From Acidobacteriota bacterium (lineage in GTDB: Bacteria > Acidobacteriota > Terriglobia > Terriglobales > Acidobacteriaceae), in the NCBI GenBank assembly GCA_013290025.1, contig JABCYV010000024.1:1-33342 (forward strand): DNA of 33,342 bases, in the 5' to 3' direction. Of the stretch, positions 174 to 27,637 are shown in pieces; the stretch's first letter is position 1, and the number at the start of each line of letters is the position of its first letter. Both the position numbers and the translations under genes were made by a program. The notes beneath the pieces are model-generated. The model was not told the DNA's origin. It worked only from the letters and a program-made list of their open reading frames with translations, and made no database searches.

Positions 174-257
174 TGGTGCCGGGAACAGGAGTCGAACCTG
201 CACGCCTTGCGGCACACGGTCCTAAGCCGTGCGTGTCTGCCATTCCACCATCCCGGC
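174..257 (-). tRNA. tRNA-Leu (anticodon UAG), CCA encoded
   Basis: Reverse complement GCCGGGATGGTGGAATGGCAGACACGCACGGCTTAGGACCGTGTGCCGCAAGGCGTGCAGGTTCGACTCCTGTTCCCGGCACCA. It has a 7-bp acceptor (GCCGGGA/TCCCGGC), anticodon stem CACGG-CTTAGGA-CCGTG, a long variable arm, a GGTTCGACTCC T-arm and terminal CCA. Confidence 0.96.
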
Positions 258-20939: not shown

Positions 20940-21250
20940 AATTCGCCGGAAGAACTGCCCTAACTGCTTCCGGTCGGCGAAGTGCCAAAGTGACCAGAGT
21001 TATTTCCCTCGATTACGTTACGTAGGTCCAACGGTGCAATCTCCTACTTTGGTGCTTTGACGCCTCCCCACCCACTCCATACGATGAGCGTTGATGCGGG
21101 CAGACCGCAGGCCCGCCGATTGACGTAGAACCTCCCTCTGATCTGCGGTTAGGAAGCCTAGCTCACCCCCGGGGCGATGGCAGAGTGGAATTCTTCATGA
21201 CCTCTTTTCATCAACTCGATGGCGGCAGAAGTTCTCCCCAGAAAGGGCAC

Positions 21251-21865
21251 ATGCTATCCAGCAAGAGCCGTGGCTTCACTCTGATTGAGCTGCTTATCGT
21301 TTTGAGCATTTCGTTTGTAATTAGCGCATTCGCGATCATGAGCATCCAGGGGGCGCTGAGGGACGGCCGCGTGACGACGGCTTACAACCTGACCTTGGAG
21401 ACAATGCGAAATACGAGACAGTTAGCCGTCGACAACCGTAAGACGTACTTCGTGACCTTTGCCCTGCCACAAACCATGCAGGTATGGCGTCAGGATCAGG
21501 GTACGCCGGCATTGCCACCGCCTGTATTGCTTAATACGTACCAGCTCCCGTTTGACGTCAATTTCGACACCGAACCAGGGATTCCAACCACGGCGACGAC
21601 TACTCCGGACGGTTTCGGCACTGCCCTCTCGCCGCTCGACTTCGATCAGGGAAGCGGAGGTGGAGGTACAACGGTCTACTTCACGCCGGACGGCGGAGCC
21701 TACGATCTGGCCGGCAACGTTAACAATGGCGTCGTCTACTTGGCGCATCCGGGTGACCTGTACACCTCACGCGCTATCACGCTGTATGGCCTGACGGGAC
21801 GCATGCGCGGCTGGCGTCTTTACAAGAACAATGTCTCCGGGACATCACAATGGCAGACCAATTGA
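21251..21865 (+). CDS. GspH/FimT-type pseudopilin (minor pilin)
   Basis: Prepilin motif SRGFTLIELLIVLSISFVISAFA, with a downstream FimT/GspH-like region. The start is ambiguous (21185, 21197 or 21251). Confidence 0.82.
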   Translation: MLSSKSRGFTLIELLIVLSISFVISAFAIMSIQGALRDGRVTTAYNLTLETMRNTRQLAVDNRKTYFVTFALPQTMQVWRQDQGTPALPPPVLLNTYQLPFDVNFDTEPGIPTTATTTPDGFGTALSPLDFDQGSGGGGTTVYFTPDGGAYDLAGNVNNGVVYLAHPGDLYTSRAITLYGLTGRMRGWRLYKNNVSGTSQWQTN

Positions 21866-22467
21866 TCATGGCAAACAAATTTCGGCGTAGTTCGGCGGCT
21901 CGCACAGCGCAGCAAGGCTTCACCTTGATTGAGGTCATGATCTCGACCGTAGTTCTGACGGTTGGCCTCGTCTCCATGCTGGCTGTTTTTGGCTTGTCGT
22001 TGGCTTCCACTCAGACTGCTCAGGAAGACATGATTGCCAAGCAATTGGCATCGCAGACCCTGGAGAGCATCTTTACAGCACGCGACACTGCACAGATCCA
22101 ATGGAGTCAAATCCAGAACGTGGCGAACGGCGGCATCTTTGTAGATGGCTTCAATCAGATCTTGGATCCGGGACCGGATGGCTTGGAAGGCACGGCGGAC
22201 GATTTAAATGCCAACCCACTTTGTCCGGGACCCAGCAAGTGTCTGATCAGCCCTGGCCCGGATGGAATCCTGGGAACCGCCGATGACGTGTACTGGCCGC
22301 TCAACAACTACTCGCGGCAAATCGTAATCGGGCCCCTGAACGACGCTAGCGGGAACCAATATTCCTCTCTTCGTTCGGTCACGATCACTGTGCAGTACAA
22401 CGCGAGTACAGGCAACAAAGCCCCAAAGAATTACGTGATGACTGCTTACATTTCGCAATACCGGTAG
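21850..22467 (+). CDS. PilV-like type IV minor pilin
   Basis: Prepilin motif QQGFTLIEVMISTVVLTVGLVSMLAVFG; overlaps the preceding gene (alternative ATG at 21868). Confidence 0.82.
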   Translation: MADQLIMANKFRRSSAARTAQQGFTLIEVMISTVVLTVGLVSMLAVFGLSLASTQTAQEDMIAKQLASQTLESIFTARDTAQIQWSQIQNVANGGIFVDGFNQILDPGPDGLEGTADDLNANPLCPGPSKCLISPGPDGILGTADDVYWPLNNYSRQIVIGPLNDASGNQYSSLRSVTITVQYNASTGNKAPKNYVMTAYISQYR

Positions 22468-22476
22468 AGACTAAGG

Positions 22477-23592
22477 GTGAATATGCGACGTACACGAACC
22501 ATGCAGACTCGCGGTTTTACCTTGGTGGAATTGATGATCGCCATGGCAGCAGGGCTCATTCTGATTGCCTCCGCGACGGAACTGTTCACGCAAGCCCTGA
22601 ATGCGACCTACGTGGTCAGCCAGCGGGCGGAGATGCAGCAGAACGGCCGGGCAGCAGTCGGCCTATTGTCTCAAGACATCAGCCTGGCCGGCGCCGGTCT
22701 TCCTACTGGCGGAGTGCAATTGCCCATTGGCGGCCCCACTAACCCAATCTATGGTTGCGATCAAACGAAGTGTTACGTCGCAGGCACCGCGCCGGCGGGC
22801 ATCGCCTATCCCAGCCAACATCTCGACGGAATAGTTCCTAGCCCTGGAGCGGGCATACCGCTCAGTGCTGGCGGCGCGAATACGGACGTTATCACCATCG
22901 CTTACGCTGACACCACTGCTTCCATTAATCAATACAAAGTGACGGCGTTTGGGCCCGCGGGCAACAGCATTACCCTGGCCCAAATCACTCCCGGTCCGAG
23001 CGTTCCCGCTCTTAACGATCCCGCGATCGGAATCAAGGTCGGTGATTTGATCATGGTGACCAACGGCGGCTCCGCTATCGCGGAAGTAACCGGCGTGACC
23101 AGCACGGTCATTAGTTTCGCCGACCTGGACGCTCTGCATATCAACCAGAGTACTGCGCCCAGTGGCAACATGAACGCAATCAGCACTCCACCCCCGCCCG
23201 GGCCACCGAGTACGATCGTTGTTCCTGCTGTCCGGATTCTGGTGATCACTTACTACATGGATCTTAACCCCGGGCCGGACGGAATTCGCTACACCGCGGA
23301 CGACCTGCCCCCTCGCCTCATGCGCCAGGTGAATGGCCAGACTCCCACGCCTGTCGCAGAGAACATCGCTGACCTGCAGTTCAGTTATGACGTGAGTAAC
23401 AGTGCGACCATCGACGCCTCCAACATAAAAGACATCATTGCCCTAGGGTACGCCCCCAGTGACATTCGCAAAGTCAACATTGCCAGCATGTCGGCACGCA
23501 GCCAGATGCACGGCAAACCGGGGTTCCAGGGCATGGACCTGTCGACTTCGGTGAGCGTGCGGGACATGAGTTTTCGCGACCGTTATCAGTGA
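22477..23592 (+). CDS. PilW-like type IV minor pilin
   Basis: Prepilin motif TRGFTLVELMIAMAAGLILIASATELF, then RAEMQQNGRAAVGLLSQDISLAGAGLP, as in PilW. Confidence 0.85.
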   Translation: MNMRRTRTMQTRGFTLVELMIAMAAGLILIASATELFTQALNATYVVSQRAEMQQNGRAAVGLLSQDISLAGAGLPTGGVQLPIGGPTNPIYGCDQTKCYVAGTAPAGIAYPSQHLDGIVPSPGAGIPLSAGGANTDVITIAYADTTASINQYKVTAFGPAGNSITLAQITPGPSVPALNDPAIGIKVGDLIMVTNGGSAIAEVTGVTSTVISFADLDALHINQSTAPSGNMNAISTPPPPGPPSTIVVPAVRILVITYYMDLNPGPDGIRYTADDLPPRLMRQVNGQTPTPVAENIADLQFSYDVSNSATIDASNIKDIIALGYAPSDIRKVNIASMSARSQMHGKPGFQGMDLSTSVSVRDMSFRDRYQ

Positions 23593-23627
23593 GGACGGAA
23601 GAGGAGAAATTGAGGAGACCAGCAACT

Positions 23628-26252
23628 ATGGACGCTAAACAACATCGGTCACAAGGATTCACCCTGATTGCAACCCTGCTATTGCTGCTCTTGCTGTCCG
23701 GGGTCGCACTGGGCCTGATGTATATGGTAAATACCGAGACCCGGGTGGGCGGCAACGACCTGGAAAATGGTCTGGCCTACCACGCCGCCGAAGGCGGCAT
23801 GGAAAAGATGACCGCTGATCTGGCCAACCTGTTCTCCTCCAGCCAGGCGCCCAACGCGGGCAATATCGCGGCATTGCAGGCTTTTCCTCCGACCATTCCC
23901 GGCGTCACCTATCCGGAATACACCATCACCCCCACGAACGGCACGAATCCGGACGGTAGCTACGTGAGCACCACCAACACGATCTCCTCCGGCAACAACA
24001 AAGGTCTGTATGCTCAGATCATCCCTATAACGCTTGCTGTGACCGCGCAGCGGCCCCTGGGCGATGAAGTGCGCATGGTCCGCGGCGTCGAAGTGGCTCT
24101 GATTCCGGTATTCCAGTTCGGTGTGTTCTGTGACGGCGATTGCAGCTACTTCGCCGGGCCCGCCTTTGATTTCGCGGGCAGAGTCCACGCCAACGGCAAC
24201 CTCTTCCTCGCGGGCGGAGCCACCCTCACCATGGAGGACCAAGTTGCCGCCGCGGGTGAAGTGATTCGCGAGCAGCTAGCCAATGGCTACCCCACTGCTG
24301 TCAACTACACCGGGTCGGTTTTGATTCCGAACGCCCCAAGTGGTTGTAGCCCTCCAGGACCCAGTTGCCTGAACCTGGGATTGAACCAAGGCAGCAAGGT
24401 GGCAGGCCCTACTAGCGCGACTAACAACGGTGCGTGCCCTGGTGGCCCCGCGTGCTGGTCGCCCTGGGTCGTGAACAACTACCACGGCTACCTTCTTAAT
24501 GGCAGCGCAGGAGCTAAACCTTTGACCCTGCCTTTTGTGGGCGCTGGCGTCGGCGCAGTTCAAATCATTCGCCGCCCTGCGCCGGGCGAGGTTTTGGGCT
24601 CGACCTTATCTGCATCGAGACTGTTCAATCAGGCCCAGATACGGATTCAGATCAGCGACGATCCAGCCGAGAACCACAATGGCGACGTCACTAAAATCGA
24701 CGCTCAGGACATCCAACTGGCGAGTCTCGAGGATGCCAACTTGCTTCCCCTCCGTCCCGCCGACATCGGAAGCGCTGGCACGGCGCAGGCCGGTATCGCC
24801 GTAACGGGAGTAGGCACCAGCTACTTCGGCGAAGCCAAAACAGCCACGGACCCCAACTTTGTAGCCCCGCTTCACATTTATGGGAACAATTTGTATGCCG
24901 GCACTGGTGCTACCCACTGGCCGCTGGTTGACGGTTGGCTGAGAGTGGAGATCCAGAAGGCAGACGGAACCTGGCTACCAGTGACGGCAGAGTGGCTATC
25001 CCTTGGATTCGGCCGCGGCACTACCATCCCGAACACAGCTATTGGCGCGCCCAACACCGCACACCAGAGGGCAATCCTGATCTTCCAGCAATTGGCGGTT
25101 CGCGGTAACGGCGCAGGCGTGAGCGCGCTTGCCGCCACCGGAGCCAACTCGCAATACAATTGGTACCCAATCAATTTCTACGATCCGCGTGAAGGCGAAG
25201 TCCGTGACACTGCCCAAGCGGGTTGCACCCCCAATGGCGTCATGAATGCCGTCGAGCTGGACGTGTGGAACCTGAGGCAGTGGTTGAATGGCACGTTCGG
25301 CGGAAACGGCGCCTTGACCGATAACGCCAAAGAAAACGGGTACGTGCTCTATTTCTCGGACCGTCGGGGTATGCTCCCTGACGCGAACGTCGTGCCACCC
25401 ACCAAGACGGGAGAATCCGGCTTAGAGGATGTGATCAATTCCGCCGACCCGACTGGCACGCCCAACGGAACACTCGAGCTGGCTGAGGACGTGGACGGTA
25501 ACACAAAGCTCGACAACTGGGGGGGAGCCAATATCGGTGATGGTTTTGGGGTCAACACCAACGTCGTCCCCGCCAAGCCCAATCCTTTCTTACCGCGCAT
25601 TGCTTGCTCAACCTTCGCCCGAGCCAACAGGGTGTCGGGTGCCCGCCACGTGCTTCGACTGATAAACGGCACGCGCGGCAACCTGCCCACCAGGTCTGGC
25701 TACACCGGCGGCTTCACCGTAGCGTCGGAGAACCCCGTGTATATTTTGGGCGACTACAACGCTTCCCTGGCCGATCACGGTTGGAACGACACCAGCCACG
25801 CCGCCGGTGCCGTAGTTGCGGATGCAGTCACTCTGCTTTCAAATAGTTGGAGCGACGTGAACGGCTTTACTAATCCCACCAGCCCCGGCAGTCGCCCCGG
25901 AACCGAGACCTACTATCGCCTCGCTGTCGCCGCCGGTAAGAACATCGACTTTCAGCAGCCGACGACCTGGGGCGCAGCCAACGACTATGGAACCGATGGT
26001 GGAGTACACAACTTCCTGCGCTACATCGAGGCTTGGGGAGCTCCGCTGCACTATCGGGGTTCGCTGGTCAGCTTGTATTACGCGCAGTACGGCACCGGGA
26101 TCTTCAAGTGCTGTACTACGGTCTACTCGCCGCCCACGCGTGACTATTCTTTTGACAAGCTGTTCCTGATCCCGTCGAACCTGCCGCCAGGAACGCCCAT
26201 GTTCAGGGACGTAGACAACACGAGTTTCCGTCAGGACTTCCGTCCTTACTAA
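23628..26252 (+). CDS. PilX/GspK-like large minor pilin
   Basis: N-term MDAKQHRSQGFTLIATLLLLLLLSGVALGLMYMVNTETRVGGNDLENGLAYHAAEGGMEKM is PilX-like. Very long protein; ATG at 23628 is preferred over GTG 23589. Confidence 0.8.
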   Translation: MDAKQHRSQGFTLIATLLLLLLLSGVALGLMYMVNTETRVGGNDLENGLAYHAAEGGMEKMTADLANLFSSSQAPNAGNIAALQAFPPTIPGVTYPEYTITPTNGTNPDGSYVSTTNTISSGNNKGLYAQIIPITLAVTAQRPLGDEVRMVRGVEVALIPVFQFGVFCDGDCSYFAGPAFDFAGRVHANGNLFLAGGATLTMEDQVAAAGEVIREQLANGYPTAVNYTGSVLIPNAPSGCSPPGPSCLNLGLNQGSKVAGPTSATNNGACPGGPACWSPWVVNNYHGYLLNGSAGAKPLTLPFVGAGVGAVQIIRRPAPGEVLGSTLSASRLFNQAQIRIQISDDPAENHNGDVTKIDAQDIQLASLEDANLLPLRPADIGSAGTAQAGIAVTGVGTSYFGEAKTATDPNFVAPLHIYGNNLYAGTGATHWPLVDGWLRVEIQKADGTWLPVTAEWLSLGFGRGTTIPNTAIGAPNTAHQRAILIFQQLAVRGNGAGVSALAATGANSQYNWYPINFYDPREGEVRDTAQAGCTPNGVMNAVELDVWNLRQWLNGTFGGNGALTDNAKENGYVLYFSDRRGMLPDANVVPPTKTGESGLEDVINSADPTGTPNGTLELAEDVDGNTKLDNWGGANIGDGFGVNTNVVPAKPNPFLPRIACSTFARANRVSGARHVLRLINGTRGNLPTRSGYTGGFTVASENPVYILGDYNASLADHGWNDTSHAAGAVVADAVTLLSNSWSDVNGFTNPTSPGSRPGTETYYRLAVAAGKNIDFQQPTTWGAANDYGTDGGVHNFLRYIEAWGAPLHYRGSLVSLYYAQYGTGIFKCCTTVYSPPTRDYSFDKLFLIPSNLPPGTPMFRDVDNTSFRQDFRPY

Positions 26253-26266
26253 GCACTCGAGCAAGC

Positions 26267-26301
26267 GCCCCGACTCTGCTACGCAGAGTCGGGGCTTTTT
26301 T
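26267..26301 (+). terminator. Rho-independent terminator of the minor-pilin operon
   Basis: Perfect 13-bp stem GCCCCGACTCTGC / GCAGAGTCGGGGC, 3-nt loop TAC, followed by TTTTTT. Confidence 0.93.
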
Positions 26302-26407: not shown

Positions 26408-27637
26408 ATGGAACTCGTCGATAGCGGCGCGGTGAAGACGAAGAGCGGACGCATGATTCCCAGCCTGGGGTTTGCGCTGCTCGTTGCCGCCAGCTCCAGC
26501 CTTTTTCTTATTCCGGCTTTCATCATCCGCCCGTTCCGGTTTCAATCTCCTCGTGGACTGATTTTGGCGATGGCCTTGCGTCAAAACGCCCCACTCTGGA
26601 CAGCCGTGTTCACTGCAGGGGCGATCGTGTTCGCTATCTTCTTGTGGCCGCGCATCTCGATCTGGAAACGAATTCCGCTGGTGCTGGGCCTGTGCCTGGC
26701 TTGCGGTGCCGCGGTGATGTCGCGGATCGATTATTTCGAGTGGATGTTCCATCCCGTGCCGGTCCCCGGATTCGAATCCGCGGATCACACAGGGTTGGAC
26801 TCCTCGGAGATGGTGATTGCGGTGCGATTCGGCAATGACGCTCGTGCCTACCCGATTCGCGAAATGGCATATCACCACGTGGTGAACGACGTCGTGGACG
26901 GAGTGCCCCTCGCGGTGACATATTGAACGCTCTGTCACACCGGTCTGGTGTGGAAACGGACCCTGAACGGAAGGCCACTGCACTTCCACCTGGCCGGAAT
27001 CAACAATCAGAACTTCCTGATGCGCGACGACGAAACCGGAAGCTGGTGGCAACAGATCACTGGGAAGGCCATCTTTGGGCCACTGAAAGGCCGGCAGCTT
27101 GATGCCGTACTCAGCGATGAACTGACCTTCGGTCTGTGGAAGCAGGAGTCGCCCGCGGGAAAGGTGCTCGCTCCGGTGACTAAATACCAGGATGAATACG
27201 AAAGCGAGTGGGAACCAAAGGTGGCCAAGTTGCCAGTCGTCATCAACTTCCCTCGAACTCCGCTACAGTCGCGGGATATCTTGATTGGGATGGAAATCAG
27301 CGGCGCCAGCCGGGCCTATCCTATGCCCGCGGTGCTGGCACAATCGCCAGTTCAGGACCGGCTCGGCGGAACTCCCATCCTGCTGGTGGTTGGGCCTGAC
27401 GGAAAATCGGTGCGCGCTTTTGTGAGCCGTCTGGACGGAAAAGATATTGAACTGTTCCGCAAGAGTGGAAGTGAATGGGTGATGGTGGATTCGACCTCTG
27501 GGAGCGAATGGAATTTTCAAGGGTGCGCCATAACTGGCCCGGCCCAAGGAAAATGCTTGCAGCCACTGCCCGTCCTCAAAGATTACTGGTTTGATTGGCG
27601 GAATTACCACCCCGAGACCAGCGTATACCGTCACTGA
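26408..27637 (+). CDS. DUF3179 domain-containing membrane protein, candidate selenoprotein with in-frame TGA (Sec173)
   Basis: ORFs 26408..26926 and 26948..27637 are in the same frame and separated only by TGA at 26924..26926. The readthrough product ...HHVVNDVVDGVPLAVTY-U-TLCHTGLVWKRTLNGRPLHFHLAGINNQNFLMRDDETGSWWQQITGKAIFGPLKGRQL... is colinear with DUF3179, where the TGA occupies the first Cys of CxxC. An SD-like ggagacgaagg lies upstream of ATG 26408. Confidence 0.82.
26936..26952 (+). promoter_or_regulatory. Putative bacterial SECIS apical stem-loop
   Basis: CACACC-GGTCT-GGTGTG, perfect 6-bp stem with loop GGUCU, starting 9 nt after the in-frame TGA. Confidence 0.65.

Follow-up and report, generated by a model that had tools for sequence, protein, structure and literature searches.

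The gene at positions 26408 to 27637 of an Acidobacteriota contig very probably encodes a selenoprotein of the DUF3179 family, in which an in-frame UGA at codon 173 is read as selenocysteine (Sec); the product would be a membrane-anchored, periplasm-facing selenol/thiol redox protein. The reading as Sec best explains the evidence assembled here: the TGA occupies an otherwise invariant Cys position, the source genome carries the Sec machinery, a SECIS-like hairpin follows the UGA and covaries among relatives, and the TGA form co-occurs with Sec machinery across genomes, from which we conclude that UGA173 is decoded as Sec. The window, i.e., the whole stretch of DNA that was analyzed, spans 33,342 nt, and the features of the gene within it are as follows.

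26408..27637, plus strand: candidate DUF3179 selenoprotein gene of 409 residues, with an ATG start and a TGA stop; its orthologues are of equal extent.
26453..26719, plus strand: three predicted N-terminal membrane helices (residues 16-39, 48-82, and 85-104), from AlphaFold, hydropathy, and charge count.
26792..27172, plus strand: DUF3179 repeat 1 (residues 129-255), which contains UxxC, from hhalign and conservation.
26924..26926, plus strand: in-frame UGA, codon 173, first residue of U-T-L-C; TGA or TGC only in orthologues, at an invariant Cys column.
26933..26935, plus strand: Cys176 codon, second UxxC residue and putative resolving thiol, from alignments.
26936..26952, plus strand: putative bacterial SECIS hairpin (CACACC, GGUCU loop, GGUGUG), kept in Sec orthologues and with covarying stems in paralogues.
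27260..27631, plus strand: DUF3179 repeat 2 (residues 285-408), without CxxC and resembling the Rieske profile minus its ligands, from hhalign and a profile match.

When TGA is translated as U, the only interior stop is the TGA at 26924-26926, and residues 120 to 404 of the 409-residue product match the Pfam family DUF3179 (PF11376) with an E value of 1.9e-63 (215 bits against a curated cut-off of 27); no NCBIfam model matches the product. No second DUF3179 copy was detected in the source genome, which is a fragmented 4.9-Mb draft in 327 contigs, 82% complete. The original prediction, made from the sequence alone, described a single frame interrupted solely by TGA, a gene cut in two by automated calling, a TGA in place of the first Cys of a CxxC motif, and about three N-terminal transmembrane segments. 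Translation bears out the frame and the position of U173, and under table 11 it does break into two open reading frames (ORFs), 26408-26926 (172 aa) and 26948-27637 (229 aa); alignment places U173 in the invariant Cys column of the family, and the AlphaFold helices and hydropathy agree on the membrane region.

The AlphaFold model (mean pLDDT of 87.1) consists of three helices followed by a beta-rich domain. The odd number of helices and the basic N-terminus suggest that the DUF3179 domain lies outside the cytoplasm, an assignment that is weakened by the Arg-rich stretch at residues 40-50 (Arg/Lys are present in both 40-50 and 77-88 by charge count) but that would fit with the apparent signal peptides at the N-termini of distant paralogues. 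Repeats 1 and 2 match one another in hhalign with a probability of 99.8 (E = 1.5e-29); by this sequence comparison, the domain is internally duplicated, and only repeat 1 contains the Sec motif. Across 77 diverse sequences, A147, U/C173, D207, W214, and G224 never vary, and Y148 and H156 hardly do.

A Foldseek comparison of both models to solved structures ranks Rieske proteins first or among the leading hits (probabilities of 0.91 to 1.00; TM scores by target of 0.5 to 0.65), albeit with nonsignificant E values of 0.05 to 0.6, and a sequence search of solved structures with the product yields noise only. Compared with a Rieske profile from Acidobacteriota, repeat 2 gives a match probability of 84, the best of 59 permuted controls reaching 1.3. 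Among known structures, the predicted fold may be like that of the Rieske ferredoxins (PDB accession numbers 2qpz, 3gce, and 5cxm), but the C-x-H ... C-x-x-H ligands of the Rieske [2Fe-2S] cluster, which acidobacterial Rieske proteins possess, are absent from the DUF3179 alignments. The models are thus no more than suggestive of a Rieske-like fold, and by the ligand residues in its alignments, DUF3179 would not be classed as a Rieske protein. We rejected the idea that UxxC stands in for the second Rieske ligand loop, in that repeat 1 alone has no match to the Rieske profile and, when repeat 2 is aligned, the equivalent of UxxC falls in an earlier hairpin.

This resemblance to metalloproteins, along with a near-invariant His156 and an invariant Asp207 that could serve as ligands, lends some plausibility to a protein that contains Sec but in which Sec173 would serve as a ligand for a metal or cofactor, or would not turn over, instead of belonging to a redox pair. 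We consider such a role unlikely: the Rieske ligand motifs are missing, and UxxC is a typical redox motif of selenoproteins, in which Sec is used mainly in redox sites.

Were the TGA a genuine stop, the gene would yield two proteins, the first a membrane stub of 172 codons and the second a soluble product beginning at 26948, in exact agreement with the two ORFs obtained with table 11. This arrangement is very improbable, as the division would fall within a beta hairpin of a single domain, for which the model has a pLDDT of 94.7, and beside invariant residues, the second ORF would begin inside the SECIS hairpin, and the Cys orthologues are unbroken. The reading of one continuous selenoprotein has a practical corollary: under the standard code, this gene and its relatives each break in two, and the commonest Acidobacteriota form of the family can hide as fragments.

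We compared codon 173 across 200 genomes of the same order, 52 of which match. It is TGA in 30 of the readable loci (the window included) and TGC in 18, with no other codon; the 29 TGA loci besides the window include three distant paralogues (group f2), and a frameshift suspected in f2 relatives from unequal open-frame lengths proved to be an in-frame low-complexity linker. The 80 named loci, which are in part the same genes as the order set, likewise have no codon here other than TGA or TGC. Relatives with names are Acidobacteriota, mainly Terriglobia metagenome-assembled genomes (MAGs). Across the phylum, 87 of 297 genomes have DUF3179 matches, and 58 PF11376 matches contain exactly one in-frame TGA; neither TAA nor TAG is reported within the phylum-wide matches listed, and L227 is the sole fetched case in which the TGA lies elsewhere than at this motif position. 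Sec is the commonest form of DUF3179 sampled in Acidobacteriota. Distant Sec paralogues have the second Cys of the motif replaced by A, T, S, or other residues (UPLA, UPLT, UPLS), which points to Sec as the attacking residue. Some Acidobacteriota carry several TGA-bearing DUF3179 paralogues per genome (L180-L234), many of them of the UxxA, UxxT, or UxxS type.

Single errors could occur in an assembly as incomplete and fragmented as this one, and the TGA might then stem from faulty sequencing or from a nonsense mutation acquired by a Cys gene in decay. But relatives at 62 to 69% identity have TGA, not TGC or TGT, at codon 173, which therefore is not a base-call error, and dozens of other assemblies carry the same TGA in full-length genes with no further lesion. 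Moreover, the codons 3' of the TGA are frozen for a hairpin in TGA genes only. In the window, the sequence 3' of the UGA is ACGCUCUGU-CACACC-GGUCU-GGUGUG, and in this subfamily, the loop starts 15 nt past the UGA. Codons 177 to 181 are nearly invariant in 95 Sec orthologues (CAC in 95/95, GGT in 95/95, CTG in 94/95, and GTG in 93/95), whereas the 18 Cys orthologues encode a nearly identical peptide with GGG, GGC, GGA, CAT, ACA, GTC, and other codons. An NGUNN loop closed by a stem of 6 bp or more, in either of two registers, is present in 120 of 135 Sec genes versus 0 of 49 Cys genes and in 3.9% of synonymous shuffles, under a criterion that was set after the data had been seen and for which the Cys genes and covariation are the fairer tests.

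The covariation is pronounced. In a second paralogue group, with loops such as CGUGU, GGUCU, or AGUUU, the loop begins 20 nt after the UGA, as it does in the DUF3179 subfamilies other than that of the window gene. Among 33 divergent Sec sequences of this group, 97.8% of cells are paired, and two-sided changes occur in all seven stem pairs; no measure is reached by any of 500 shuffles, and slid controls are 25 to 44% paired. One locus (L033) has the double change CACACG/CGUGUG. In two orthologues (L086 and L111), the hairpin lies 5 nt further downstream, as CGGGUCU-GGUCU-GGACCCG, and the peptide UTLCHTGLVW is unchanged. Conservation and covariation already refute sequencing error or gene decay, which we regard as having almost no standing as an explanation for this TGA. 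With its strong covariation and the two displaced hairpins, the family provides a natural collection of SECIS elements.

The minimum free energy of the window hairpin (-12.3 kcal/mol) is unremarkable relative to shuffles (z = -0.91), so the case for a SECIS element rests on conservation and covariation. The published bacterial model specifies an apical loop of 3 to 9 nt, an upper stem of 4 to 16 bp, a G within the first two nucleotides of the loop, a free energy of no more than -7.5 kcal/mol, and a UGA-to-loop distance of 16 to 37 nt, this distance range covering most but not all elements (PMC13188914). The window hairpin fits in energy, in its 5-nt loop (GGUCU) with its leading G, and in its stem (6 bp, or 7 if a U-G pair is counted); its spacing of 15 nt, by count, is just under the published distance.

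The machinery for decoding such an element is present in the source assembly, which contains a tRNA-Sec (71 bits; called by ARAGORN as SeC with anticodon TCA), SelA (544 bits), SelB (377 bits, above the cut-off), and SelD (362 bits; L067, G000:C45:9180-10106). The selD gene has its own in-frame TGA, in AAG-U-ASKLSP, at what we take to be the place of the SelD catalytic Cys, and its product is probably also a selenoprotein; with TGA in both selD and the DUF3179 gene, the source genome would therefore encode at least two selenoproteins. Weaker tRNA-Sec matches in this genome are ordinary tRNAs wherever checked, and the following gene also scores weakly with the tRNA-Sec model.

174-257, minus strand: tRNA-Leu (TAG) gene.

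Recoding of UGA to Trp is known in some bacteria, but that a suppressor or an altered genetic code inserts Trp or Cys at codon 173 is hardly conceivable, as the gene's own terminator is TGA, the interior TGA aligns with Cys only, and that TGA accompanies SelA, tRNA-Sec, and a covarying SECIS-like hairpin.

Decoding as Sec is what the original prediction had put forward, for a candidate UxxC selenoprotein, and its sequence-based proposals for checking it have been answered favorably: all four Sec genes are in the source genome, close relatives share the TGA, the homologous position never holds anything but Cys or Sec, and an error or nonsense mutation is, as it had judged, unlikely. None of the three outcomes that it had named as contrary (a genome devoid of Sec machinery, an ordinary Cys codon in close relatives along with a base-call error, or a homologous position other than Cys/Sec) was encountered.

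In the ortholog tree (106 rows), all 21 Cys forms fall into one clade (SH-aLRT of 100) opposite the 85 Sec forms, with a single Sec/Cys change, and when distant Sec paralogues serve as the outgroup, the Cys clade is nested among Sec forms. This nesting suggests that Cys took the place of Sec once, although change counts alone give no direction. A wider tree of 176 sequences, inferred by a quick method and with weak deep support, has at least seven Sec/Cys changes. Of the 29 sampled genomes of the order that carry the TGA form, 25 have a tRNA-Sec at an E value of ≤1e-10, and every one has tRNA-Sec or SelA; the four TGA genomes in which tRNA-Sec was not recognized (G117, G101, G015, and G025) all have SelA, and assembly gaps or an unusual tRNA-Sec may be the cause. 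Both tRNA-Sec and SelA are missing from 17 of the 18 genomes with the Cys form. The co-occurrence is strong but not phylogenetically independent, as the Cys orthologues constitute one clade. One switch on the ortholog tree and the lack of SelA in all but one Cys genome make for a clean Sec/Cys exchange. The remaining genome, that of Edaphobacter lichenicola X5P2 (G156; L044/L115), has a Cys-form DUF3179 gene and a tRNA-Sec adjoining selA (C7:219750-222513), and since its relatives have no SelA, its Sec machinery was either retained or regained.

Directly upstream of the DUF3179 gene, at 21185-26252, are minor-pilin-like genes (N_methyl and PilX_N domains), a cluster that is found again at roughly 20 of 81 loci. 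The cluster and the DUF3179 gene are separated by the following feature.

26267..26295, plus strand: intrinsic terminator, a 13-bp stem and then a T run.

Because of this terminator, the DUF3179 gene is probably its own transcription unit, and despite the recurrence, we did not adopt a functional tie to the minor-pilin-like cluster.

In the mechanism that we propose, SelB and tRNA-Sec decode UGA173 as selenocysteine under the direction of the short SECIS hairpin situated 15 nt downstream with its GGUCU loop, as the comparative evidence shows. The three helices would anchor the product in the inner membrane, with the two-repeat DUF3179 domain outside the cytoplasm, where Sec173 would attack and Cys176 resolve, the pair cycling between selenol/thiol and selenenylsulfide, perhaps with the assistance of the conserved His156 and Asp207. 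Its most likely role is probably that of a thiol-type reductase or peroxidase of the cell envelope. More tentatively, DUF3179 may represent a duplicated Rieske-type fold that lost its Fe-S ligands and gained a Sec/Cys center in a hairpin, making it an envelope-facing selenol oxidoreductase and a common cause of the retention of selenocysteine in Acidobacteriota, a scenario that we consider possible rather than probable. With a redox residue, an internal repeat, and a candidate fold named, this uncharacterized domain becomes testable.

The Escherichia coli fdhF SECIS element, like that of the window, has a GGUCU apical loop that presents G-U to SelB, but the window loop is about 3 nt nearer to the UGA, and its stem differs in sequence. 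Ordinary members of the family also offer comparisons: the Cys-type DUF3179 of Edaphobacter lichenicola has the same domain with TGC for TGA and no SECIS-like hairpin, acidobacterial Cys-type proteins share the N-terminal membrane region of the window protein, and the plasmid copies of Haloferax larsenii and Deinococcus deserti, with the same domain, are annotated as ordinary DUF3179 proteins. A 2006 survey counted four selenoproteins of three families in Acidobacteria, and we found no function for DUF3179 in the literature searched, where three papers name it. Two reviews list DUF3179 as a selenoprotein family of the UxxC/T type (PMC9312934, PMC13188914), and in the listed proteins, which share the Pfam family of the window product, Sec likewise replaces the leading Cys of this motif. 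The DUF3179 entry of the 2022 review cites Zhang and Gladyshev 2007 on the Olavius algarvensis symbiont (PMC9312934); the case in that entry traces to a marine deltaproteobacterial symbiont, whereas in Acidobacteriota Sec prevails among the forms sampled, and the subfamily of the window protein has a predicted three-helix membrane anchor. The selenoprotein status of DUF3179 was therefore known already, and what is added here is a lead, suggestive only, toward a Rieske-like fold, the internal duplication of the domain, and the predominance of the Sec form among the Acidobacteriota sampled.
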